NCBI GenBank assembly: GCA_900467685.1
Contig: UBQX01000022.1
Location: 1-64,000 of the forward strand
Reading direction: 5' to 3'
Length of the DNA: 64,000 nucleotides
DNA from: Hyphomicrobiales bacterium
GTDB taxonomy: Bacteria; Pseudomonadota; Alphaproteobacteria; Rhizobiales; Rhizobiaceae
A program made the position numbers and the translations under genes. The notes below the pieces were generated by a model that worked only from the letters and a program-made list of their open reading frames with translations, did no database searches and had not been told where the DNA came from. This document shows, one piece after another, positions 18,941 through 31,574 of this stretch; positions within the stretch are counted from its first letter, which is position 1, and the number at the start of each line of letters is the position of its first letter.

Positions 18941-19846
18941 ATGCAGAACGGGCTACAGACTTTCGTCGATTACGCCAATATCGACTACCCGCGTCTCCAG
19001 GCGCTTTTGATCCAATACACGCTGTCGATTTTCGGGGCGATCGTTATCCTGATCGTCGGCTGGCTGTTGACCCAACTTCTGGGTCGATGGACCTATGCCG
19101 CGCTGTCGCGCGTGCGCGGACTGGACACGACGATCGCCGGCTTTGCCTCGAATTTCGTGCGCTACTTCCTGATGGTCATGGTCATCGTGATGGTGCTGGG
19201 GCAGTTCGGCGTCCAGACGGCATCCATCATCGCGGCTCTCGGCGCCGCCGGTCTTGCCATCGGCCTGGCGCTCCAGGGGACGCTCCAGAACATTGCCGCC
19301 GGCATCATGCTGCTCATTCTCAGGCCGTTCCGGGTGGGAGACTATATCGAGACCGGTGCGGTGTCGGGCATCGTCCAGTTCATCGGCATCTTCACCACCG
19401 AGTTCAAGACGCCGGAGGGGATGTATCGCGTCGCGCCGAACTCGCTGCTCTGGAACGTGCAGATCACCAATTTCAGCCGCATGCCGACCCGTCGCTACGA
19501 CTTCACGATCGGCATCGGCTATGAGGACGATATCGACAAGGCCTCAGACATCATGCTCGGCCTCGTCCGCGGCGACAAACGCGTCCTTGCCGATCCGCCT
19601 CCGGAAACCTTCGTCAACGCGCTGGCGGACAGTGCCGTGACAATCACACTGCGCTACTGGACGAGCTCGGCGGATTTCTGGCCAACAAGCCGCGACGTTA
19701 TCAAGAACACCAAGATTGCGTTCGACAAGGCCGGCATCAACATTCCTTTCCCGCAGGTGCAATATTCCGGCACCGTGGAAACGGTGCCCAAGGACCCGAA
19801 GTCTCAAGGACTCAGTTCGGGATCACCAGCACATCCGACGCGTTGA
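18941..19846 (+). CDS. Small-conductance mechanosensitive channel (MscS family)
   Basis: This is a 301-residue inner-membrane channel that opens under membrane tension to release solutes. There are three N-terminal helices. The pore helix GAAGLAIGLALQGTLQNIAAG and the beta domain RPFRVGDYIETGAVSGIVQFIG follow, then IGIGYEDDIDKA in the vestibule domain. The length is close to E. coli MscS (286). The last 35 bases overlap the 3' end of the convergent ABC ATPase gene. Confidence 0.93.
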   Translation: MQNGLQTFVDYANIDYPRLQALLIQYTLSIFGAIVILIVGWLLTQLLGRWTYAALSRVRGLDTTIAGFASNFVRYFLMVMVIVMVLGQFGVQTASIIAALGAAGLAIGLALQGTLQNIAAGIMLLILRPFRVGDYIETGAVSGIVQFIGIFTTEFKTPEGMYRVAPNSLLWNVQITNFSRMPTRRYDFTIGIGYEDDIDKASDIMLGLVRGDKRVLADPPPETFVNALADSAVTITLRYWTSSADFWPTSRDVIKNTKIAFDKAGINIPFPQVQYSGTVETVPKDPKSQGLSSGSPAHPTR

Positions 19847-20876
19847 AATGCGCCGTTGCAATCTCACCGATCTGCGGCGGCTGAAGGCCGGGATTGTTGA
19901 ACATGTCGAACGAAACCTGCTGGCCGCCAACATCCATGCGCGTACGAATGACCGAGCCAAGGAAGTTGACGCTGACCACGCGTCCTTCAATGGCCACGTC
20001 GCTCGACGGGGTCTTCGAAAGCGACAGGGCCTCCGGGCGCAGCGCCACGGTGATCGATGCACCATTGCCTGCTCCGTTGAGGTTGGCCGGGGGAATTGTC
20101 ATGTTGCGGCCGGCAAAGCGAACAGTGGCGGCATCCGGGTTTTCGACCTTGGCTTCGAGTATGTTCAGTGTGCCGACAAACCCCGCGACGAAGCGCGTCG
20201 AAGGTTTGTTGTAAATGTCGGATGGCGTGCCGATCTGGTCCGCAATCCCGGCATTCATGACCACGATGCGGTCGGAAATCGAGAGCGCTTCTTCCTGGTC
20301 GTGGGTCACGAAGATCGTCGTGATGCCGAGCTTGCGCTGGATCAGGCGAATTTCCTCGCGCAGTGATACGCGGATCTTGGCGTCGAGCGCGGAGAGCGGC
20401 TCGTCGAGAAGGAGCACCTTCGGCTTGTTGGCCAGCGCACGTGCAAGGGCGACGCGCTGCTGCTGGCCGCCTGACATCTGATATGGGTAGCGGTCCGCCA
20501 GATGGCCGAGATGGATGAGGTCGAGCATTTCCTTGACGCGCGCGTCGATCTCCGCCTTGGACGCACCCGCGACCTTGAGGCCGAAGGCAACGTTTTCAGC
20601 GACCGTCATGTTGGGGAAGAGGGCATAGGCCTGGAAGACCATGCCGATATTGCGCTTGTTGGGCTTCAGGCCGTTCTGGTTGACGCCGCCGATGGTGATG
20701 GTGCCGCCGGTGACGCTTTCGAAACCGGCGATCATGCGCAGCACGGTCGTCTTGCCGCAACCCGATGGCCCGAGGAAGGAAACGAATTCGCCTTCCTCGA
20801 TCGACATGTTGAAATCGTGGACCACCTTGACGATGCCGAAGGACTTCTGGACGTGGGAGAGTTCGAGATAGGACAT
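19812..20876 (-). CDS. ABC importer ATPase (polyamine/PotA-like class)
   Basis: This is a 354-residue ATPase with Walker A GPSGCGKTT, signature [16 protein letters not shown], Walker B VLLLDEPLSALD and H-loop [11 protein letters not shown]-terminal TOBE-type domain (ALRPEALSLSKTP) follows. It is the last gene of the SBP-permease-permease-ATPase operon. It is similar in class to PotA, AfuC and related importers; the substrate is not readable from the ATPase. It starts 7 bases after the upstream permease. Its 3' end overlaps the convergent mscS gene by 35 bases. Confidence 0.9.
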   Translation of the reverse strand: MSYLELSHVQKSFGIVKVVHDFNMSIEEGEFVSFLGPSGCGKTTVLRMIAGFESVTGGTITIGGVNQNGLKPNKRNIGMVFQAYALFPNMTVAENVAFGLKVAGASKAEIDARVKEMLDLIHLGHLADRYPYQMSGGQQQRVALARALANKPKVLLLDEPLSALDAKIRVSLREEIRLIQRKLGITTIFVTHDQEEALSISDRIVVMNAGIADQIGTPSDIYNKPSTRFVAGFVGTLNILEAKVENPDAATVRFAGRNMTIPPANLNGAGNGASITVALRPEALSLSKTPSSDVAIEGRVVSVNFLGSVIRTRMDVGGQQVSFDMFNNPGLQPPQIGEIATAHFNASDVLVIPN

Positions 20877-20883
20877 TGGGACC

Positions 20884-21672
20884 TCAACGCGCGCCAGCGG
20901 CGCCCTTTTGCAGGCGGGTGGTGATATTGATGAGAATGATCGAAACCCAGGTCATGGCAAAGGCGATCATGGCGAGCGCCGGCGGCTCATAGGCCTTGTT
21001 CGCACCGATGAGCGCGAGATAGGGACCGAAGGCGGGCCGGTTGAGAAGCGAGGGCATGGTGAACTCGCCAACTGCAATCGCGAAGGTGATGAAGGCGCCG
21101 GAGAGAACACCGGTCAGCACGTTCGGGAAGATGCAGCGGAAGAGAATGGTTGGCCAGCTTGCACCAAGGCTTTCGGCCGCCTCGGTCAGTACGGCGACGT
21201 CGATGGTCCGCATGGCGGTATCCACGGCGCGGTACATGTAGGGCAGGGACATCGTCATGAAGCCGAAGACCAGGAGGGCGTTGGAGCCGGTCTCCGTGTT
21301 GGTCAGCGGCAGCCAGGACGAGGAGTTATAAAGGCGCAGATAGCCGAAGATGATAACGATGGCCGGCACGACGAGCGGCAGCAGAGTCACGAATTCAACG
21401 ACGGGGCGCAGATAGGGCATGCGCAGCCGCACCCAATAGGCTGTCGGCACGATCAGCAGCGCGCCAATGGCGATGGTGATCAACGCCATGACTACAGAGT
21501 AGCTGAAGGTGGATACGAAGCGCTGGTCGGCGAAGACCGAACGATAGGCGTCAAACGAATAGGTGCCGCGCCGCATACGCATGGAGAATTCCAGCGTCGC
21601 AAGCAGGGGTACGATGAAATAGAACGCAGCGACGAATACGGCGAACCAGGACCAGAATTTTTTGGCCGTCAT
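20884..21672 (-). CDS. ABC importer permease 2
   Basis: This is a 262-residue permease with six helices. The coupling loop reads EAAESLGASWPTILFRCIFP, and an N-terminal FWSWFAVFVAAFYFIVPLLATLE helix is present, as in PotC-type permeases. The ATG at 21672 overlaps the TGA of permease 1 (ATGA) and has AAAGGTGG upstream. A GTG at 21681 is the alternative. Confidence 0.9.
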   Translation of the reverse strand: MTAKKFWSWFAVFVAAFYFIVPLLATLEFSMRMRRGTYSFDAYRSVFADQRFVSTFSYSVVMALITIAIGALLIVPTAYWVRLRMPYLRPVVEFVTLLPLVVPAIVIIFGYLRLYNSSSWLPLTNTETGSNALLVFGFMTMSLPYMYRAVDTAMRTIDVAVLTEAAESLGASWPTILFRCIFPNVLTGVLSGAFITFAIAVGEFTMPSLLNRPAFGPYLALIGANKAYEPPALAMIAFAMTWVSIILINITTRLQKGAAGAR

Positions 21673-22541
21673 TTCTGCCACCTTTCGGCGCGCATGCGCA
21701 GCCAGATGTAGATGAAGTTGGAAATGCCGGTGATCACGACCATGCCGAAGGCAACGGCATAGCCGAGGTTCGGGTTATGCAGCACGTCACCGCGGATCTG
21801 CGCGAAGAGCACAATCGGCACGATGTTGAGCGAGGATCCCGTCAGCGCCACGGCCGTTGCCACCGCGCCGAAGGCGTTCGCGAAGAGCAGCAGCAGCGTG
21901 CCGAAGACGCTTGGCCACAGGATCGGAATGACGACCATGCGCCAGTATTGCCACGTGGTGGCGCCGAGGACGCTTGCCGCTTCCGACCACTCGCGCTTGA
22001 GGCCATCCAGTGCCGGCGTGATGATCAGCACCATGAGCGGGATCTGGAAATACATATAGGTCAGCGTCAAGCCGAGAAAGCTCAGCAGGTTGAAGCCGGT
22101 GGCATAGAGATTGAAGCCGAAGACGTCGCGCAGGATGATCGTGACGAGGCCTAGACGGCCGAGCGTCGACAGGAACGCGAAGGCGAGCGGTACACCGGCG
22201 AAGTTGGAGGCGACACCGCAGAAGGTGAGGACGGCCGAGCGCAGCCAGGAGGGCAGGCCGCCGAGCGAAATCGCGGCCGCAAGACCAAAGCCGATGATCG
22301 CCCCACCCAGCGCGGAGGCGGCCGAAACCTTGATGGAAATGATATAGGCAGCAAGGATGTTGGGCTGAAACAGGTCGATGAGGTTCTGCAGCGTGAGATT
22401 GCCGTTCGGATCGAGGAACGCGCCGCTCACCAGATAAACGGTGGGCGCGATGAGGAACATGATCGCGAAGATGGCGAAGGGCGCGATGCCCAGCCAATCG
22501 GTAATCAGTCGCCTGTTCAGGAGAGGTTGCGTTGCTGCCAT
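21669..22541 (-). CDS. ABC importer permease 1
   Basis: This is a 290-residue permease of the PotB-like class with six helices. The coupling loop reads EAASVLGATTWQYWRMVVIP, and FANAFGAVATAVALTG follows. The ATG at 22541 (MAATQPLLNRR) is preceded by GGGGA. It is separated from the binding-protein gene by 93 bases holding two hairpins. Confidence 0.9.
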   Translation of the reverse strand: MAATQPLLNRRLITDWLGIAPFAIFAIMFLIAPTVYLVSGAFLDPNGNLTLQNLIDLFQPNILAAYIISIKVSAASALGGAIIGFGLAAAISLGGLPSWLRSAVLTFCGVASNFAGVPLAFAFLSTLGRLGLVTIILRDVFGFNLYATGFNLLSFLGLTLTYMYFQIPLMVLIITPALDGLKREWSEAASVLGATTWQYWRMVVIPILWPSVFGTLLLLFANAFGAVATAVALTGSSLNIVPIVLFAQIRGDVLHNPNLGYAVAFGMVVITGISNFIYIWLRMRAERWQK

Positions 22542-22565
22542 GCGGTCCCCGGTTCTTGTTCTCTC

Positions 22566-22614
22566 GGCCCTTTGCGGGCCTTGTTGGTCGGCTCCCCCGG
22601 TTGTCCGGGGAAGC
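22566..22614 (-). terminator. Two hairpins between binding-protein and permease genes
   Basis: GGCCC/GGGCC at 22566-22580 (loop TTTGC) and a 10-base-arm stem with one mismatch at 22591-22614 (arms GCTCCCCCGG and CCGGGGAAGC). There is no T-run. Such structures after a binding-protein gene commonly stabilise its message and reduce read-through to the permeases. Confidence 0.5.
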
Positions 22615-22634
22615 CGCAGTTTCAAATCGGGGCC

Positions 22635-23738
22635 TTACTTCACGTTGGCGCCGACGACCTTGTCCCAGCCTTCGGTGATCGACTTCTTGTAGGCAGCCTG
22701 TTCGTCGAGCGTCGGGAAGACGGCCTTGGCATAGTTCTCAGCCGGCGGCAGCTTGGCCATCAGGTCAGCCGGGATCTTGCCGGCCTTGGCCATGGCGTTG
22801 AAGCGGATCGGGTGGCAGAAGCCCTTCAGCCATTCGAGCTGGCCTTCGTCCGAATAGAGGTATTCCATCCAGAGCTTCGCAGCGTTCGGGTGAGGCGCGT
22901 AGGCCGAGATCGCCTGGACGTAGACGCCGGCGACAACGCCCGAAGACGGAACGACGACCTGATAGGGCGGGTTGCCCTTGAGGCTCTCGCCCCAGCTCAT
23001 GGCGTTGTAGTCCCATGCGGCGATGATCGGCGTAGTGCCCTGAGCGAACGGAGCGGCCTTGCCGATAACCGGAACGAAGTTGCCGGCAGCATTCAGGCTC
23101 TTGAAGAACTCGAGACCGGCATCGCCAGCCTTGGCAATGTCGCCGTTCGATGCTGCCAGACCAGCAGCGAAGACGCCGGAAATGGCCTGGTTTGCCTGGC
23201 GCGGGTCACCGGCAAGCGCAACCATGTTGGCATATTCCGGCTTCTGCAGGTCAGCCCAGTCCTTCGGGATATTCTTGACGAGGTCCTTGTTTACCAGGAA
23301 GGACATGACGCCATAATAGTCGCCATACCAGTAGCCTTCGGCATCCTTGGCGGAATCCGGAATTTCGTCCCAGGTGGAGACCTTGTAAGGCTGGATCAGG
23401 CCGTCCTTCTTGGCCTGCGGGCCGAAGGAGAGGCCGACGTCGATCACGTCGGGAGCCTGCGGTCCGGTATTGCCCTTGTTGGCCTTGATGGCTTCGATTT
23501 CATCGCCCGAGCCGGCGTCAGGGTTCAGTTCGTTGATCGCAATGCCGTACTTCTTCTTGAAGCCTTCAATTGCGCCGCCGTAGTTGCACCAGTCGTGCGG
23601 AAGCGCGATCGTGGTCAGCGTGCCTTCCTTCTTGGCCGCAGCAACGAGGTCTTCCATGGCGCCGGCCTGTGCGACGCCGGACGCTGCGATGGCAATGGCC
23701 GTCGTCAGCGACAGGACTTTGAGAGACGTCTCGATCAT
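22635..23738 (-). CDS. Periplasmic solute-binding protein of the ABC importer
   Basis: This is a 367-residue binding protein. The signal peptide MIETSLKVLSLTTAIAIAAS ends near AQAGA. The mature part fits the PotD/AfuA-like group (TIALPHDWCNYGGAIEGF, APDVIDVGLSFGPQAKKDG, GYWYGDYYGVMSFLVNKDLV). The ligand is not identifiable. Polyamine, amino alcohol or another small cation is plausible given the divergent catabolic genes. The ATG at 23738 has GAGGAGAAG upstream. Confidence 0.88.
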   Translation of the reverse strand: MIETSLKVLSLTTAIAIAASGVAQAGAMEDLVAAAKKEGTLTTIALPHDWCNYGGAIEGFKKKYGIAINELNPDAGSGDEIEAIKANKGNTGPQAPDVIDVGLSFGPQAKKDGLIQPYKVSTWDEIPDSAKDAEGYWYGDYYGVMSFLVNKDLVKNIPKDWADLQKPEYANMVALAGDPRQANQAISGVFAAGLAASNGDIAKAGDAGLEFFKSLNAAGNFVPVIGKAAPFAQGTTPIIAAWDYNAMSWGESLKGNPPYQVVVPSSGVVAGVYVQAISAYAPHPNAAKLWMEYLYSDEGQLEWLKGFCHPIRFNAMAKAGKIPADLMAKLPPAENYAKAVFPTLDEQAAYKKSITEGWDKVVGANVK

Positions 23739-23814
23739 GTTCTTCTCCTCTTGGATGCCGGCGGTCTGCCCGCACGGTTGTCGGTCGAATATTGGTAATG
23801 CATAACGTTTGTGT

Positions 23815-23833
23815 GACAGGCGCAATGCCTGTC
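23815..23833 (-). other. Hairpin between rpiR and the binding-protein gene
   Basis: GACAGGC (23815-23821) and GCCTGTC (23827-23833) form a perfect 7-bp dyad with a 5-base loop, lying just after the RpiR stop on the minus strand. It could be a weak terminator, an attenuator or an operator. No T-run follows. Confidence 0.35.
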
Positions 23834-23839
23834 CTAAGC

Positions 23840-24754
23840 TCAAATCTGCTGCTTCCCCCGCTTTTCTCTTTTGATTGGTCTCCTGAACAGGCTTGTCGTG
23901 TCGAAAAGCTCTTCCAGATCGCTCATGCGCTCGCGCGTCGAGTCCCAGTTGGCGCTCTGCACCGCCTCGATCAGCGCTTCCACCAGGACCAGCGTCATGA
24001 CGGATGAGTCCCAGGCGGAGGGCACTTCGATATTGAGGCGGAAGACGACCTTGGCGTGCTTGACGATGGGCGAGCCCCAGGTGTCGGTAAACAAGATGAT
24101 GAAGATGCCGCGCTCGGCCGCAATCTTCGCCATCGTCTCCATTTCCTGCTCGTAGCGACGGATATCGAAGAGGACGAGAATGTTGCCGGGCCGCATGTTG
24201 AGAACGTATTGCGGCCAGGTGCTGCGGTTCGTCGAAATCAGCGTCACGCCCGAGCGGATGACCTGCAGATGTGTGAAGAAATAGTCGGCCAACGCATGGG
24301 TGATGCGGCCGCCGGCGAGATAGACGGGTTTCTTTCGGTTGGACAGTTCCGCCGCTGCGCGGTCGAAATCCGGAATGGACATGTTGGCGAGGCTGTCGCG
24401 CATGTTGGCGACGACGGCATCGGCAAAGCGGTTGAGGATGTGCGTTCCCGGCGCATCGGCCGCCCAGCGGTCGTGCTTTGAAATCGGGTTGGAAATTGTC
24501 TCTTCGAGTTCCTGGTGCAGGCGCGACTGGAAGTCGGGAAAGCCTGAAAAGCCGAGCTTCTGGACCATGCGGACAACAGTCGGCGTCGACACGCGCGCGT
24601 TTTCCGCAAGCGCCGTGATCGACACAAGGCCGGACACCGGGTAGTTGTCGAGAAGCGTTTCAGCCAATTGCCTCTCGGCCCGCGTGAGCGTGTCGTAGCT
24701 CGCGCCGATGATGTCCGAAACTGTTTTCAAGTTTCCGGTCACAGATATGTTCAC
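23840..24754 (-). CDS. RpiR/MurR-family transcriptional regulator
   Basis: This is a regulator of about 304 residues. The N-terminal helix-turn-helix reads LTRAERQLAETLLDNYP, ITALAENARVSTPTVVRMVQKLGFSGFPDF. The C-terminal SIS domain contains PVYLAGGRITHALADYF and ILVLFDIRRYEQEMETMAKIA. RpiR proteins sense phosphorylated or small polar metabolites and control adjacent catabolic genes. The gene sits between the ABC operon (same strand, 101 bases on) and the divergent catabolic operon. The start is uncertain. GTG 24754 was chosen because the domain begins soon after; GTG 24742 and ATG 24808 are possible. Confidence 0.88.
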   Translation of the reverse strand: MNISVTGNLKTVSDIIGASYDTLTRAERQLAETLLDNYPVSGLVSITALAENARVSTPTVVRMVQKLGFSGFPDFQSRLHQELEETISNPISKHDRWAADAPGTHILNRFADAVVANMRDSLANMSIPDFDRAAAELSNRKKPVYLAGGRITHALADYFFTHLQVIRSGVTLISTNRSTWPQYVLNMRPGNILVLFDIRRYEQEMETMAKIAAERGIFIILFTDTWGSPIVKHAKVVFRLNIEVPSAWDSSVMTLVLVEALIEAVQSANWDSTRERMSDLEELFDTTSLFRRPIKREKRGKQQI

Positions 24755-24913
24755 CCTCTGGCGAAGCGTGCCGCAAAGATTGCGTGCCGGTCCCCACCGT
24801 TTTCTCATCTTGGTCGACGCAACCCTGGTCTGGACCCTGGCCGACGTCTTCAGTCGGTCTGGTGCCGACATTGTCACAAAACTAAACGCAGGATCACAGC
24901 CCGAGTCAACGAG

Positions 24914-24984
24914 CATTTTTCTGAAAAGATAATTTCAGGAGTGAATTGACATCGGATTTTTTTTGAAGAACATTTTTCAGAATT
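24914..24984. promoter_or_regulatory. Repeated operator-like motif and promoter between rpiR and the catabolic operon
   Basis: CATTTTTCTGAAAA (24914-24927) and CATTTTTCAGAATT (24971-24984) are two copies of a near-palindromic TTTTC-GAAAA element, 57 bases apart. TTGACA at 24946-24951 lies between them. This suggests a promoter bracketed by two repressor sites, with RpiR as the likely ligand. Confidence 0.45.
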
Positions 24985-25003
24985 GAGGGTCTGGGATTTG
25001 ACG

Positions 25004-25813
25004 ATGCGCAAGTGGGAATGCGTTCTTTCTCCGGATGAGGGCGATCCGGTCGGCATCGAGCAGGAGAGGGGTCGCGGCCCCTTCGTGATCGTGTGCGAAC
25101 ACGCGTCTTCCACGCTGCCCCGCGCCATGGGCGACATGGGCCTCAGCGAAGAGACGCGGCTATCCCACATCGCCTGGGACCCGGGCGCACTGGCGGTTGC
25201 GCGGCTGCTTTCGGGCCGTTTCGACAGCCCGCTTGTCTTCCAGAAGTTTTCCCGCCTTGTCTATGACTGCAATCGCCCGCCGGAATCACCGGCTTCGATG
25301 CCGCCGATGAGCGAGATTTATTCAGTTCCCGCCAATGAGGCCGTCGACGGGGCCGAGCGGCTTGCCCGGACGCAGGCACTCTATCGGCCATTCCATGCGG
25401 CCGTCTCTACGCTGATCGATGAGCGGACCTGCAGCGGGCTTGCAACTGCGGTGATCACTGTCCACAGTTTCACGCCTGTCTATTTCGGCAAGCCGCGTGC
25501 GGTCGAAATCGGCATTCTGCACGATGCAGATGCGCGTCTTGCCGACGGCATGCTGACGGCCGCCACATCGGATCGCCGCTATGACGTACGCCGCAACGAG
25601 CCCTATGGGCCGGCCGATGGCGTGACGCACAGTCTCATTCTTCATGGAATTTCGCGCGGAATTCCAAACGTGATGATCGAGGTCCGTAACGACCTCATTT
25701 CAGATGAAGCCGGCCAAGGGGTCATGGCCGGTTACCTGTCGGAGCTGATTGCGCAGGCGATCGGCCAGCAGGAGCATAATAACAAGACCTTCATGAATGT
25801 CAGAAGCCACTAG
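25004..25813 (+). CDS. N-formylglutamate amidohydrolase-family hydrolase
   Basis: This is a 269-residue zinc-type amidohydrolase (HutG2/PF05013 family). The motifs are FVIVCEHASSTLP, HIAWDPGALAVARLLS, LVYDCNRPP, ITVHSFTPVYFGKPR and PNVMIEVRNDLI. Characterised members hydrolyse N-formylglutamate in histidine degradation, but no hut genes are nearby. Beside a gamma-glutamyl ligase it may instead cleave a gamma-glutamyl amide; this is inference. The start is ATG 25004; TTG 24998 and TTG 24983 are alternatives. Confidence 0.85.
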   Translation: MRKWECVLSPDEGDPVGIEQERGRGPFVIVCEHASSTLPRAMGDMGLSEETRLSHIAWDPGALAVARLLSGRFDSPLVFQKFSRLVYDCNRPPESPASMPPMSEIYSVPANEAVDGAERLARTQALYRPFHAAVSTLIDERTCSGLATAVITVHSFTPVYFGKPRAVEIGILHDADARLADGMLTAATSDRRYDVRRNEPYGPADGVTHSLILHGISRGIPNVMIEVRNDLISDEAGQGVMAGYLSELIAQAIGQQEHNNKTFMNVRSH

Positions 25814-25867
25814 AATTCAACTGGACGACATTGGCGTCGGCACGACGCAAACAGGGGAACTGAAACC

Positions 25868-27418
25868 ATGAGTGAATACTCAGATACAGACAAGAAACAG
25901 GACCTCGCGGTCCTGCATTCGATGGGCTACGCCCAGGAACTGGAACGGCGGATGAGTTCGTTCTCGAACTTTGCCATCTCCTTCTCGATCATCTGCATCC
26001 TGTCCGGCGGCATCAACTCGCTCGGACAGGCGACGTCCGGTGTGGGTGGCGCGGCCATCGGCATCGGCTGGCTTGTCGGCTGCGCAATCTCCGGCATCTT
26101 TGCGCTCGGCCTTGCCCAGATTGCGTCTTCCTATCCGACAGCAGGCGGGCTTTATCACTGGGCCTCCATCCTCGGTAACCGCTTTACCGGCTGGCTGGCG
26201 GCGTGGCTCAACCTGCTCGGTCTCGTGACGGTTCTCGGGGCGATCAACGTCGGCACGTATTACTTCTTCTTCGGTGCGTTCGGCACCTATTTCGGCATGG
26301 AAGACACGCTTCTGGTTCGCGTGCTCTTCGTTGCCGCAATTACCGCACTTCAGGCCCTGATCAATCATTTCGGGATCGGCCTGACGGCTAAGCTCACGGA
26401 CTTCTCCGGCTATCTGATCTTCGCGACGGCGATTCTCTTGACCGTGGCCTGCCTGGTTGCGGCACCCGGTTACGACATCGGCCGCCTCTTCACGTTCGCG
26501 AACTATACGGGCACGGAAGGTGCAAGCGGGGTCTGGCCGAATCAGGTTTCGACTCTGATGGCATTCGGGCTCGGCCTGCTGCTGCCGATCTACACGATCA
26601 CCGGCTACGACGCCTCGGCGCATACGTCTGAAGAGACGATCAAGGCGTCCACCTCGGTTCCGCGCGGCATGATCTCCGCCGTGCTCTGGTCGTCGCTCTT
26701 CGGCTACATCATGCTGTGCTCGTTCGTCCTCATGATCCCGAACATGGACGATGCCGCCAAGCAGGGCTGGAACGTGTTCTTCTGGGCCATGGACAGCCAG
26801 ATGAACCCCTTGATGAAGGATGTGCTCTACTTCCTGATCTTCATCTCGCAGTTCCTGTGCGGTCTTGCCACCGTCACGTCGCTGTCGCGCATGATGTTCG
26901 CCTTCTCGCGTGACAAGGGCCTGCCGGGTTCGGCGGCGCTGGCGAAGGTCAGCCCGAAGTATCGCACGCCGGTTGCGGCCATCTGGGTCGGCTCGATCCT
27001 GTCGGTTCTTTTCGTATGGTTTACGTCTGCCATCACGATTGCCGGCACGCCTGCCTATTCGATCGTTGTGTCCTGCACGGTCATCTTCCTCTTCCTCTCC
27101 TTCGCTCTGCCTATTGCACTCGGCATTGTCGCCATCGGTGGGCCGAAGTGGTCTAAGATGGGCGAGTGGAACATGGGCATCGGCACCTATAAGCTGGTGG
27201 CGGTTCTGACCATCGTCGCCATGATCCTGATCTTCTTCATCGGCATTCAGGCGCCGAACGACTGGGCGCTGCCGATCACGGTGGGCTTCCTGGTTCTCAC
27301 GGCGATTGTCTGGCTGGCGTTTGAAAACAAGCGCTTCAAGGGGCCGCCGATCGGCGAGGAAGTCGCCAAGCGCCAGGCGGAAATTGCTGCCGCCGAACAC
27401 GCGGTCGGCGAAGCCTGA
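25868..27418 (+). CDS. APC-superfamily amino acid/amine permease
   Basis: This is a 516-residue inner-membrane permease with about 12 helices. The N-terminal signature FSNFAISFSIICILSGGINS and TAGGLYHWASILGNRF, followed by ITGYDASAHTSEETIKA, place it in the amino acid/choline/GABA permease group related to PuuP-like and eukaryotic-type (HNM1/UGA4) carriers. It is preceded by GGGGAA and lies 54 bases after the hydrolase gene. It probably imports the substrate of the pathway. Confidence 0.9.
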   Translation: MSEYSDTDKKQDLAVLHSMGYAQELERRMSSFSNFAISFSIICILSGGINSLGQATSGVGGAAIGIGWLVGCAISGIFALGLAQIASSYPTAGGLYHWASILGNRFTGWLAAWLNLLGLVTVLGAINVGTYYFFFGAFGTYFGMEDTLLVRVLFVAAITALQALINHFGIGLTAKLTDFSGYLIFATAILLTVACLVAAPGYDIGRLFTFANYTGTEGASGVWPNQVSTLMAFGLGLLLPIYTITGYDASAHTSEETIKASTSVPRGMISAVLWSSLFGYIMLCSFVLMIPNMDDAAKQGWNVFFWAMDSQMNPLMKDVLYFLIFISQFLCGLATVTSLSRMMFAFSRDKGLPGSAALAKVSPKYRTPVAAIWVGSILSVLFVWFTSAITIAGTPAYSIVVSCTVIFLFLSFALPIALGIVAIGGPKWSKMGEWNMGIGTYKLVAVLTIVAMILIFFIGIQAPNDWALPITVGFLVLTAIVWLAFENKRFKGPPIGEEVAKRQAEIAAAEHAVGEA

Positions 27419-27528
27419 CAAGACGAGCCCAAAGACTTGCGCTCCGGCTATCGCTGGCCGGGGCGCTTCCAATCCATAATGACAAAGCGGGCCCGTGAGC
27501 GGCCGACAGGGAACAGGGACAGCTTCTG

Positions 27529-28896
27529 ATGAGCGCCAAATACGATTTCGAGACCTTGAAAAAGGACGTGGCCGAGGGCCGTATCGATACGGTTCTGGCC
27601 GTACAGGTCGATATGCAGGGTCGGCTCATGGGCAAGCGCTTCCACGCGCAATATTTCCTCGATAGCGGCTGGCACGAGACGCATAGTTGCAACTACCTAC
27701 TGGCGACCGATATCGAGATGGAGACGGTTCCGGGCTACAAGGCGACGAGCTGGGAATCCGGCTACGGCGACTACACCATGAAGCCGGATCTCTCGACGCT
27801 GCGGCGCATTCCGTGGCTCGAAGGCACGGCGATGGTCATCTGCGACGTGCTCGACCATCACACGCATGAAGAGGTTCCACATTCGCCGCGCGCGATCCTG
27901 AAGAAGCAGGTCAAGCGGCTCGAAGGCATGGGGCTCAAGGCCTATATGGCGACCGAACTCGAATTCTTCCTCTTCGATCAGACCTATGACGACGCGCGCG
28001 AAAGCGGCTACCGCGACCTGCGCCTCTGCTCCGGCTATAATGAGGACTACCACATCTTCCAGACGTCCAAGGAAGAAGACGTGATGCGGGCGATCCGCAA
28101 CGGACTTTATGGCGCTGGCATCACGGTCGAGAATTCCAAGGGCGAGGCGTCTGCCGGCCAGGAAGAAATCAACGTCAAGTATGACGAGGCGGTGGTGACC
28201 GCCGACCAGCATTCCATCGTCAAGAACGGTGCAAAGGAAATTGCCTGGGCGCGCGGCAAGGCGATCACCTTCCTCGCCAAGTGGAGCAATGCCGCCGCCG
28301 GCAGTTCCTCGCATATCCACCAGTCGCTCTGGTCGCTCGACGGCAAGCCGATGTTCTATGATCCGAACGGTCGCTACGGCATGTCGAAGATGATGGAGCA
28401 CTACGTGGCGGGCCTGCTCGCCCATGCCGAGGAAGTGACCTATTTCCTCGCGCCCTACATCAACTCCTACAAGCGCTTCGTCGCCGGCACCTTCGCGCCG
28501 ACCAAGGCCATCTGGTCCAAGGATAACCGTACGGCTGGCTATCGCCTCTGCGGCGAGGGATCGAAGTCGATCCGCATCGAATGCCGCGTCGGCGGTTCGG
28601 ACCTGAACCCCTATCTGGCGCTCGCAGCCCTTCTGGCGGCCGGCATCGACGGGATCGAAAAGCAGATGACGCTCGAAGATCCCTTTACTGGCGACGCCTA
28701 CAAGGCGGGCGAAATCCGCGAGGTGCCCAAGACGCTGCGTGCCGCCACGGAGGCACTCAACAAGTCTCAGCTTCTACGCTCGGCCTTTGGCGACGGCGTG
28801 GTCGATCACTATGTCCGCGCAGCGGAATGGGAGCAGGAAGAGTACGATCGCAAGATCACCGATTGGGAAGTGGCGCGCGGTTTCGAAAGGGCGTAA
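27529..28896 (+). CDS. Glutamine synthetase-like gamma-glutamyl-amine ligase
   Basis: This is a 455-residue protein of the glutamine synthetase superfamily that probably ligates glutamate to an amine using ATP, as PuuA and IpuC do. The catalytic pieces include ATELEFFLF, AGQEEINVKYDEAV, the ATP-site histidine in AGSSSHIHQSL, NSYKRFVAGTFAPT, WSKDNRTAGYR and IRIECRVGGSDLNPYLA. The adenylylation-site loop of GlnA is not seen. The gene context (permease, dehydrogenases, amidohydrolase) argues against a nitrogen-assimilation GS. It is preceded by an AGGGAACAGGGACA ribosome region. Confidence 0.88.
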   Translation: MSAKYDFETLKKDVAEGRIDTVLAVQVDMQGRLMGKRFHAQYFLDSGWHETHSCNYLLATDIEMETVPGYKATSWESGYGDYTMKPDLSTLRRIPWLEGTAMVICDVLDHHTHEEVPHSPRAILKKQVKRLEGMGLKAYMATELEFFLFDQTYDDARESGYRDLRLCSGYNEDYHIFQTSKEEDVMRAIRNGLYGAGITVENSKGEASAGQEEINVKYDEAVVTADQHSIVKNGAKEIAWARGKAITFLAKWSNAAAGSSSHIHQSLWSLDGKPMFYDPNGRYGMSKMMEHYVAGLLAHAEEVTYFLAPYINSYKRFVAGTFAPTKAIWSKDNRTAGYRLCGEGSKSIRIECRVGGSDLNPYLALAALLAAGIDGIEKQMTLEDPFTGDAYKAGEIREVPKTLRAATEALNKSQLLRSAFGDGVVDHYVRAAEWEQEEYDRKITDWEVARGFERA

Positions 28897-28990
28897 ACCG
28901 GCCTCAAATTTCGCTTCGATGGTGTGGATGGGCTTCATTTGAAGTCGGTCGGCTGAACGCTGGAGCGATGAGACTCAAGAGAGGAATTGC

Positions 28991-29011
28991 CATCCCGCCG
29001 CAGGCGGGATG
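28991..29011. repeat. Perfect palindrome in the ligase-ALDH gap
   Basis: CATCCCGCC, loop GCA, GGCGGGATG: a 9-bp perfect stem. It lies in the 148-base gap between the ligase and aldehyde dehydrogenase genes. There is no T-run; an mRNA-processing or repetitive palindromic element is possible. Confidence 0.5.
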
Positions 29012-29044
29012 GATAGTTTAGAACACAAGATCAGGAAAAAGATC

Positions 29045-30427
29045 ATGACGATGATCCGATGCATTTCGCCGGTTGACGGTTCGGTCTATGCCGAACGTCC
29101 GGCGATGAGTTTTGACGATGCGGCCGCAGCGGTCGCGCGTGCCCGCAAGGCGCAGAAGGCCTGGGCGAAGCGCCCGCTCGAAGAGCGCGTGCAGCTGGTG
29201 CTGAAGGGCGTGGCGCGGCTTAACGAGATGGCCGATGTCGTGGTCGAGGAACTGGCTTGGCAGATGGGTCGTCCGGTTCGCTACGGCGGCGAGTTCAAGG
29301 GTTTCAACGAGCGCTCCAACTATGTCGCGACGATCGCCGCCGATGCGCTGGCGCCGCTGAAGGTCGAAAGCTCGGACAAGTTCGAGCGCTATATCGAGCG
29401 CGAGCCGCATGGCGTCGTCTTCGTCATCGCGCCGTGGAACTATCCCTACATGACCGCGCTGAACACGATTGCGCCGGCGCTGATGGCGGGGAACACGGTC
29501 GTGCTGAAGCATGCGTCGCAGACGCTGCTGGTCGGCGAGCGCTTCGTGCAGGCCTTCAACGAGGCGGGCGTGCCGGAAGACGTGTTCATGAACGTTTTCC
29601 TCGACCATGACACGACGACGAAGCTGATTGCGGCCGGTTCGTTCAATTTCATCAACTTTACCGGCTCTGTCGAGGGCGGGCGCAATATCGAGCGCGCGGC
29701 TGCCGGCACGTTTACCGGCACGGGGCTCGAGCTCGGCGGCAAGGATCCGGGCTATGTCATGGAAGACGCCGATCTGGATGCGGCTGTCGACACGCTGATG
29801 GATGGCGCGACCTACAATTCCGGCCAGTGCTGCTGCGGCATCGAGCGTATCTATGTGAACGAAAACCTGTACGACGAATTCGTCGAGAAGTCGGTCGCCT
29901 GGGTGTCGAACTACAAGCTCGGCAACCCGCTCGACAAGGAAACGACGCTCGGCCCGATGGCGCACAAGCGCTTTGCCGCGACCGTGCGCGAGCAGATCGC
30001 TCAGGCCGTCTCCAAGGGCGCCAAGGCGCTGGTCGATCCGAAGCTCTTCCCGGCTGACGACGGTGGCGCCTATATCGCCCCGCAGATCCTCGTCGATGTC
30101 GATCACTCGATGGAGATCATGCGCGAGGAGACATTCGGTCCGGCTGTCGGCATCATGAAGGTCAAGAACGACGCCGAAGCGCTCGAGCTGATGAACGATT
30201 GCAAATACGGCCTGACCGTTTCGCTCTGGACGAAGGATGCGGAACGCGCCGCCCGTCTCGGTCGCGATCTGGAAACCGGCACGGTCTTCATGAACCGCGC
30301 CGACTATGTCGATCCGGGCCTTTGCTGGACCGGCTGCAAGGATACGGGCCGCGGCGGCTCTCTCTCCATCATCGGCTTCCATAACCTGACCCGTCCGAAA
30401 TCCTATCACCTCAAGAAGGCACTCTAA
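29045..30427 (+). CDS. Aldehyde dehydrogenase (NAD(P)+-dependent)
   Basis: This is a 460-residue aldehyde dehydrogenase oxidising an aldehyde to an acid. The cofactor-binding segment is IAPWNYPYMTALNTIAPALM. The catalytic glutamate is in LELGGKDPGYV, and the nucleophile is in NSGQCCCGIERIYV. EETFGPAVGIMK follows. In this cluster it would oxidise a gamma-glutamyl-amino-aldehyde, as PuuC does. The ATG at 29045 is preceded by AGGAAAA. It ends one base before the alcohol dehydrogenase gene. Confidence 0.92.
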   Translation: MTMIRCISPVDGSVYAERPAMSFDDAAAAVARARKAQKAWAKRPLEERVQLVLKGVARLNEMADVVVEELAWQMGRPVRYGGEFKGFNERSNYVATIAADALAPLKVESSDKFERYIEREPHGVVFVIAPWNYPYMTALNTIAPALMAGNTVVLKHASQTLLVGERFVQAFNEAGVPEDVFMNVFLDHDTTTKLIAAGSFNFINFTGSVEGGRNIERAAAGTFTGTGLELGGKDPGYVMEDADLDAAVDTLMDGATYNSGQCCCGIERIYVNENLYDEFVEKSVAWVSNYKLGNPLDKETTLGPMAHKRFAATVREQIAQAVSKGAKALVDPKLFPADDGGAYIAPQILVDVDHSMEIMREETFGPAVGIMKVKNDAEALELMNDCKYGLTVSLWTKDAERAARLGRDLETGTVFMNRADYVDPGLCWTGCKDTGRGGSLSIIGFHNLTRPKSYHLKKAL

Positions 30428-30428
30428 G

Positions 30429-31574
30429 ATGTCGATTACTGCAAACTGGAGCTACCCAACCCTCATCAAGATGGGGGCAGGGCGCATCAAGGAACTGGCC
30501 GATCACTGCAAGTCGCTCGGCATGAAGAAGCCGTTGCTGGTGACCGACCGTGGTCTCTCCACGATGCCGATTACGAAACAGGCCCTCGACATTCTGGAAG
30601 CCGGCGGCCTCGGCCGCGCGATCTTCGCCGATGTCGATCCGAACCCGAACGAGAAGAACCTTGAAGCCGGCGTGAAGGCCTTCAAGGATGGCGGTCATGA
30701 CGGCGTCGTTGCCTTCGGCGGCGGCTCGGGTCTCGACCTCGGCAAGTGCGTGGCCTTCATGGCCGGCCAGACGCGTCCCGTTTGGGATTTCGAGGATGTC
30801 GGCGACTGGTGGACGCGCGCGTCTGTCGAGGGCATTGCGCCGATCGTGGCCGTGCCGACCACGGCCGGCACCGGCTCGGAAGTCGGCCGTGCTTCGGTCA
30901 TCACCAATTCGGTGACGGAAACGAAGAAGATTATCTTCCATCCGAAGTTCCTCCCCGGCGTGACAATCTGCGATCCGGAACTCACCGTCGGTATGCCGAA
31001 GCACATCACCGCCGGCACCGGCATGGACGCCTTCGCGCATTGCCTGGAAGCCTACTCCTCGCCCTTCTACCATCCGATGAGCCAGGGCATTGCGCTCGAA
31101 GGCATGCGGCTGGTGAAGGAATATCTGCCGCGCGCCTACAAGGACGGGACGGATATCGAGGCCCGCACGCATATGATGTCGGCTGCTGCCATGGGCGCTG
31201 TTGCCTTCCAGAAGGGGCTCGGCGCGATCCACTCGCTCAGCCACCCGGTCGGCGCGATGTATCATACGCATCACGGCACCACGAATGCCGTCGTCATGCC
31301 GCCGGTGCTGCGCTTCAACCGTCCTGCGATCGAAGATCGCATCGCGGCTGCTTCCGCCTATCTCGGCATTGCCGGCGGTTTCAACGGCTTCTACGACTTC
31401 GTTCTGGGCCTGCGCGAGGAACTCGGCATTCCGGACAAGCTCGCGGCGCTCGGCGTGAAGACGGATCGCGTCGACGAGATGTCGGTCATGGCCGTCGCCG
31501 ACCCGTCTACAGGTGGCAACCCGGTCGAACTGACCGTCGAAGCTGCCAAGAAGTTGTTCCTCGAATCGATCTGA
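30429..31574 (+). CDS. Iron-containing alcohol dehydrogenase
   Basis: This is a 381-residue group III alcohol dehydrogenase. The cofactor loop is GGGSGLDLGK (97-106), with PTTAGTGSEVG. The metal ligands are D200 and H204 (GMDAFAHCLEAY), H268 and H282 (HSLSHPVGAMYHTHHG), with the spacing of FucO. It is tightly coupled to the aldehyde dehydrogenase gene and followed by a strong terminator. It would oxidise a primary alcohol to the aldehyde that the neighbour consumes, which suggests that the pathway substrate carries a hydroxyl group. Confidence 0.93.
   Translation: MSITANWSYPTLIKMGAGRIKELADHCKSLGMKKPLLVTDRGLSTMPITKQALDILEAGGLGRAIFADVDPNPNEKNLEAGVKAFKDGGHDGVVAFGGGSGLDLGKCVAFMAGQTRPVWDFEDVGDWWTRASVEGIAPIVAVPTTAGTGSEVGRASVITNSVTETKKIIFHPKFLPGVTICDPELTVGMPKHITAGTGMDAFAHCLEAYSSPFYHPMSQGIALEGMRLVKEYLPRAYKDGTDIEARTHMMSAAAMGAVAFQKGLGAIHSLSHPVGAMYHTHHGTTNAVVMPPVLRFNRPAIEDRIAAASAYLGIAGGFNGFYDFVLGLREELGIPDKLAALGVKTDRVDEMSVMAVADPSTGGNPVELTVEAAKKLFLESI

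Follow-up and report, generated by a model that had tools for sequence, protein, structure and literature searches.

We analysed a window of 64,000 nucleotides (positions 1 to 64,000, forward strand, of contig UBQX01000022.1, assembly GCA_900467685.1) from a Hyphomicrobiales bacterium of the family Rhizobiaceae. In this window, the gene of a glutamine-synthetase-like (GS-like) ligase is clustered with genes for an FGase-family hydrolase, an aldehyde dehydrogenase (ALDH), an iron-type alcohol dehydrogenase (Fe-ADH), an RpiR-family regulator and two uptake systems. Judging by homology and gene order, the cluster very probably serves ethanolamine catabolism via gamma-glutamyl intermediates, with release of glycine. 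The genes and sites were as follows:

19812..20876, minus strand: ABC importer ATPase, PotA/PhnT-like (PF00005 and TOBE_2)
20884..21681, minus strand: ABC importer permease 2 (PF00528)
21669..22625, minus strand: ABC importer permease 1 (PF00528)
22635..23741, minus strand: ABC solute-binding protein (PF13343; nearest PDB chain 5t1p)
23802..23819, minus strand: weak PHO-box-like site 5' of the binding-protein gene (matching the consensus at 10 of 14 positions)
23840..24916, minus strand: RpiR-family regulator (HTH_6, PF01418, and SIS, PF01380)
24922..24937, plus strand: putative RpiR operator 1, TGAA-N8-TTCA
24964..24979, plus strand: putative RpiR operator 2, TGAA-N8-TTCA
24983..25813, plus strand: predicted gamma-glutamylglycine hydrolase, FGase family (PF05013; PDB 2odf, Atu2144, E 5.2e-92)
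25868..27418, plus strand: APC permease (PF13520), in the slot that other clusters fill with an EtoVWX-like TRAP importer
27529..28896, plus strand: predicted ethanolamine gamma-glutamyl ligase, GS-like (PF00120; 63.9% identity to PDB 5dm3)
29009..30427, plus strand: predicted gamma-glutamyl-aminoacetaldehyde dehydrogenase (PF00171)
30429..31574, plus strand: predicted gamma-glutamylethanolamide dehydrogenase, Fe-ADH (PF00465 and PF25137; metal-ligand residues)

Domain matches confirmed the families and strands that a first-pass annotation of this DNA had assigned to the RpiR regulator, ABC importer, PF05013 hydrolase, APC permease, ligase, ALDH and Fe-ADH, and the Fe-ADH residues D200, H204, H268 and H282 were present as claimed. 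The span it had given, 20884-31574, contains the genes it named, but the ABC ATPase at 19812-20876 belongs to the set and falls outside. The start of the binding-protein gene was set at the ATG at 23741, the mechanical open reading frame (ORF) extending to 23843; the mechanical ORFs of RpiR and the FGase probably carry extra N-terminal sequence, judging by homologue lengths. The hydrolase, ligase, ALDH and Fe-ADH genes lie in this order on one strand, with the RpiR gene divergent. The same arrangement was found at a Ruegeria plasmid locus (L119) and in Paracoccus denitrificans (L121), both reading RpiR / FGase - TRAP x3 - GS - ALDH - Fe-ADH, and in Sinorhizobium meliloti (L122), which has the layout of the window.

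From the gene content, gene order, orthology and conserved sites observed at the locus, we infer the reactions, substrate, uptake and regulation. Ethanolamine would enter through the APC permease, perhaps also through the ABC importer, and the GS-like ligase would use ATP to couple it to the gamma-carboxyl group of glutamate. The Fe-ADH would convert the hydroxyl of gamma-glutamylethanolamide to an aldehyde, which the ALDH would oxidise to gamma-glutamylglycine, and the FGase-family hydrolase would split this product into glutamate and glycine. The enzyme operon is probably under RpiR control via the two TGAA-N8-TTCA sites. A PF06751 search for EutB, by which membership of the Eut (ethanolamine ammonia-lyase) pathway was judged, found no match in the window's own genome, with E. 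coli the sole positive among 14 control genomes. The enzymes of the cluster are candidates for ethanolamine use by a bacterium in which no EutB was detected.

Work on Streptomyces (2019) and on Phaeobacter (2023) had already described this scheme, so the earlier suggestion of a possibly undescribed route does not stand; the locus is a well-conserved member of an already known pathway, differing in its transporter set. According to PMC10132767, the operon of Phaeobacter sp. MED193 reads RpiR-GGAH-EtoVWX-ETAGA-GAADDH-GETADH, comprising gamma-glutamylglycine amidohydrolase (GGAH), a TRAP importer (EtoVWX), ethanolamine gamma-glutamylase (ETAGA), an aldehyde dehydrogenase (GAADDH) and gamma-glutamylethanolamide dehydrogenase (GETADH). 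The same source reports that the operon proteins rise on phosphoethanolamine, and credits the pathway to Chromohalobacter salexigens (Csal_0678 and neighbours) and A. tumefaciens C58, cited as demonstrated ethanolamine utilisation (Vetting et al. 2015). Phaeobacter and the window share the RpiR gene and the same four enzyme roles in the same order, with Ruegeria L119 standing in for the Phaeobacter sequences; they differ in transport, Phaeobacter having a TRAP importer where the window has an APC permease, and the window having in addition a divergent ABC importer. From its position in L119 and L121, the Phaeobacter GETADH would be an Fe-ADH. For Streptomyces GlnA4, formation of gamma-glutamylethanolamide was demonstrated and the same downstream steps were proposed (PMC6529630); the scheme is repeated in PMC9397018. 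By the description in PMC6529630, the Streptomyces coelicolor cluster SCO1610-SCO1615 also has a ligase, a dehydrogenase, an ALDH and a hydrolase and would yield glycine and glutamate, but it differs in a predicted short-chain dehydrogenase in place of the Fe-ADH and in its regulator; the hydrolase is placed in the formylglutamate-amidohydrolase family in the text and called a glutamine amidotransferase in a figure legend. The present locus extends across Rhizobiaceae a recently described ethanolamine route that needs neither a microcompartment nor ethanolamine ammonia-lyase.

We then compared the ligase with known families. It scored 276 bits against the GlnA model (cut-off 429) and 208 bits against NF045547 GGputSyn, the gamma-glutamylputrescine synthetase model (cut-off 650), and therefore passes as neither; the best PF00120 match in the genome is another locus. 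The two closest PDB chains were 5dm3 (E 7.6e-198) and 11zs (E 3e-192), the next PDB match being at E 1.4e-54. Identity was 63.9% to 5dm3, 61.5% to 11zs and 65.8% to the Ruegeria ligase, 39.2% to IpuC and 28.7% to E. coli PuuA. We take 5dm3, whose database record says only 'L-glutamine synthetase', to be Csal_0679 of C. salexigens, an organism that resembles the window in this ligase but uses a TRAP importer. A tree of 90 rows placed the window ligase together with 5dm3 and the Ruegeria and Paracoccus ligases in a group of 51 rows (support 100/100), and PuuA, IpuC and three own-genome paralogues (of seven fetched) fell outside. Within the group, 43 rows were flagged as Fe-ADH-linked, 3 were unflagged and 5 were flagged as lacking the Fe-ADH, two of these (L130, L166) near contig ends and three (L135, L136, L141) real. 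IpuC of Paenarthrobacter aurescens TC1 (pTC1), a GS-like ligase too, differs in its neighbours, a cytochrome P450 and a short-chain dehydrogenase, with no Fe-ADH annotated. Because IpuC is annotated as gamma-glutamylisopropylamide synthetase, its substrate is isopropylamine and not isopropanolamine, the substrate named in the first-pass annotation.

Conservation of the cluster was assessed in three sets of loci. The nearest set comprised the best 80 of 590 GTDB loci and is for this reason biased to close relatives. In a survey of relatives, the ligase was matched in 39 of 61 genomes (42 matches), and the neighbourhood counts use 36 of these matches, leaving out the own locus, four same-genus copies of 97-99% identity (G001, G002, G004, G005) and G050 at a contig end. 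The class survey found a match in 31 of 289 genomes, own included, and all 30 class loci were counted. Neighbours were located by tblastn with single sequences as queries, which may overlook divergent FGases or ALDHs. The results showed that the order FGase-GS-ALDH-FeADH was kept in 78 of the 80 nearest loci (in one of them with the FGase match in two pieces), and the two exceptions, L040 and L063, lie near contig ends; this gene order is conserved far beyond chance. All 80 nearest loci had the Fe-ADH and ALDH, 78 the FGase, 78 the RpiR gene and 77 the ABC cassette, three loci lying near contig ends. Among the 36 other relatives, the Fe-ADH was found in 34 (both misses near contig ends), the ALDH in 32, the FGase in 30 and the ABC cassette in 11; the corresponding numbers for the 30 class-wide loci were 23, 15, 8 and 0. 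These counts indicate that the enzyme unit is tight within the family and looser outside it. The Fe-ADH counts also support the proposal that a hydroxyl is the second oxidisable group of a glutamylation pathway, and, in agreement with the claim that the operon has no amine oxidase, no PuuB was detected among the ten cluster genes scanned.

The slot between the FGase and GS genes was then compared. Of the 80 nearest loci, 67 had an APC permease there, 9 a TRAP importer, 3 an Eat-like permease and 1 nothing; the other relatives had TRAP in 24, Eat-like in 3, APC in 2 and nothing in 7, and the class loci TRAP in 10, Eat-like in 1 and nothing in 19. Since its contents vary, the slot was treated as a variable transporter and not as a defining enzyme step, which makes the transporter slot of the ethanolamine route modular (TRAP, APC, Eat-like or none). 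The TRAP importer EtoVWX was not found in the window's slot, which holds the APC permease; a same-genus genome (L163) keeps TRAP there, with the same flanks as the window. The Ruegeria TRAP binding protein matched PDB 4uab at E 1.4e-191, and 4uab is the structure of Csal_0678 with bound ethanolamine, according to PMC12410723. This exchange of the slot with an ethanolamine-binding TRAP family is the main argument for ethanolamine as substrate and, together with the published scheme, makes ethanolamine to glycine, one of the cases that the first-pass annotation had named, the most likely.

In Aminobacter (L126), Paracoccus pantotrophus (L204) and one of the relatives (L164), the enzyme set adjoins bhc genes of the beta-hydroxyaspartate cycle, annotated there for glyoxylate and glycolate catabolism. 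These neighbours would fit a C2 product, glycine, used further via glyoxylate, and the bhc-linked set resembles a module leading from ethanolamine into glyoxylate assimilation. A literature search pairing the beta-hydroxyaspartate cycle with ethanolamine, covering titles only, returned no title concerning such a module. Two of the bhc-linked sets lie on plasmids, that of L126 typed conjugative and that of L204 mobilizable.

Several observations weigh against the assignment to ethanolamine. The window itself has no TRAP importer, so ethanolamine specificity would rest on slot equivalence. Seven of the 30 class-wide loci have no nearby Fe-ADH, one of them near a contig end, and the other six are also without a close ALDH or FGase; overall, a close ALDH is missing in 15 and a detected FGase in 22 class loci. 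For five of the six untruncated loci of this kind, together with the neighbour of L149, ten surrounding ORFs were scanned against Pfam; 5 gave no match, and the others proved to be unrelated enzymes or a sensor kinase. The same chemistry might also act mainly on another small amino alcohol, such as 2-amino-1-propanol or 1-amino-2-propanol, and yield alanine or a different amino acid. A change of substrate is conceivable, as the APC and ABC importers differ from the ethanolamine-binding TRAP, and 4xf5, listed with 4uab among the TRAP matches, presumably holds 2-amino-1-propanol. We consider such a shift unlikely, because, within the same genus and family, a TRAP importer of the ethanolamine-binding family can take the slot, three related clusters lie next to glyoxylate-cycle genes, the Phaeobacter operon responds to phosphoethanolamine (PMC10132767), and 1-amino-2-propanol would yield a ketone and leave the ALDH unused.

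The E. coli Puu pathway shares the glutamylation logic of ligase, ALDH and hydrolase, and a Puu-type polyamine or monoamine route with its oxidase encoded elsewhere would explain this resemblance. PuuB-like genes, defined as scoring over 120 bits within 7 kb, were indeed found at 20 of the 80 nearest loci, but at 0 of the 36 other relatives and 0 of the 30 class loci; in S. meliloti L122, which is outside the 80, the PuuB-like gene is separate and convergent, beyond parA. All 20 loci with a PuuB-like gene keep the Fe-ADH, so the pattern named beforehand as telling against a hydroxyl substrate, a PuuB-type oxidase regularly present with the Fe-ADH absent, was not observed. The Puu pathway further differs in using PuuB in place of the Fe-ADH, which is conserved throughout the nearest loci, and a PuuD-family hydrolase in place of PF05013. 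In this genome, PuuB-like genes of 49% and 38% identity sit near other GS paralogues, L197 (contig C12) and L201 (contig C13) respectively; these loci are possibly its real Puu-type clusters. Membership of the Puu pathway was rejected on the low PuuA identity and NF045547 score of the ligase and on the lack of PuuB among the cluster genes scanned, and a Puu-type route is highly improbable. An ordinary glutamine synthetase with unrelated neighbours, suggested by the GS fold and the GlnA match, is less credible still, given a score under the GlnA cut-off, a better PF00120 match at another locus of the genome and the conserved gene order.

For the predicted regulation of the ethanolamine operon, we searched the 64 kb for the motif TGAA-N8-TTCA and found just two copies, at 24922 and 24964, which lie 42 bp apart between rpiR and the hydrolase gene. 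For the stricter form TGAARANNNNNTTTCA, 0.06 occurrences were expected, and two were reached in 1 of 100 shuffles. In the nearest loci, 76 of 78 intergenic regions contained at least one TGAA-N8-TTCA, as did 8 of 28 in the other relatives, 2 of 8 in the class loci and 2 of 4 in plasmid loci.

The divergent ABC importer was examined separately. Its binding protein was found at E<=1e-60 in 24 of 61 genomes, lying within 10 kb of the GS gene in 16, elsewhere in 5 that possess the GS gene, and in 3 without a GS match (G014, G027, G031); given these unlinked copies, the importer is not tied to the ethanolamine pathway in every genome. A Pfam scan of ten neighbouring ORFs from 6 of the 8 unlinked importer loci gave 5 without a match and none that was telling; the matched neighbours were a TrkH cation transporter, an L,D-transpeptidase, an acyl-CoA dehydrogenase-type protein, a pyridine-nucleotide oxidoreductase and a histidine kinase. 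At L210, in the same-family genome G014, which has no GS match at E<=1e-100, the unlinked cassette adjoins an Eat-like permease (46%). The structure model of the binding protein had a mean pLDDT of 86.2, and its best Foldseek match, 5t1p, is a putative binding protein for which no ligand is given. The presumed Ser-Gly-Thr phosphate site of P5PA aligns with Ala-Asn-Gln or Ser-Asn-Gln in this binding-protein family, and this lack of conservation speaks against a simple organophosphate ligand.

We also searched 97 loci (L009-L088, L186-L194, L205-L212), which are related and thus give counts that are not independent, for sites upstream of the binding-protein gene. TGAA-N8-TTCA was found there in 0 of the 97, so the ABC operon seems not to be directly controlled by RpiR through this motif. 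PHO-box-like sites were defined as matching CTGTCAT-N4-CTGTCAT, the consensus given in PMC3131613, at 11 or more of its 14 positions. Such sites were present 5' of the binding-protein gene in 37% of the loci versus 2% in shuffles, and 5' of eight other genes of the loci in 0 to 6%. By arrangement, they occurred in 29 of 83 divergent, 4 of 6 downstream and 3 of 8 unlinked cassettes. The window's own site scores 10 of 14, under the threshold, with shuffles averaging 8.6. The exact consensus occurs three times in the genome; one copy adjoins a PhoU-like/PHO4 phosphate-transporter pair, and the other two had no phosphate gene among the neighbours scanned. In S. meliloti, the 'iron transport' genes SMc04316/SMc04317 have a Pho box and strong phosphate induction (PMC8829014). 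The enrichment suggests that the importer may answer to phosphate stress. It is conceivable, though doubtful, that it is a PhoB-controlled scavenger of ethanolamine or an ethanolamine phosphoester from phospholipid head groups under phosphate starvation; the unconserved P5PA motif counts against one half of this proposal. If true, one locus would join phosphate scavenging to ethanolamine catabolism in Rhizobiaceae, a connection between phosphate stress and the recycling of head groups that can be put to the test.

Two plasmid loci carry related ligases in other settings. In Paraburkholderia sabiae (L123), a 60% identical ligase neighbours genes for a 2-aminoethylphosphonate-pyruvate transaminase, a homoserine O-succinyltransferase and a gamma-glutamyl-GABA-hydrolase-family protein. 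In Rhizobium sp. CB3171 (L125), a 50% identical ligase lies with an ALDH, an FGase-type hydrolase, an APC permease and an N,N-dimethylformamidase-like gene, with no Fe-ADH annotated nearby; this cluster may represent a glutamylation route for another amine.

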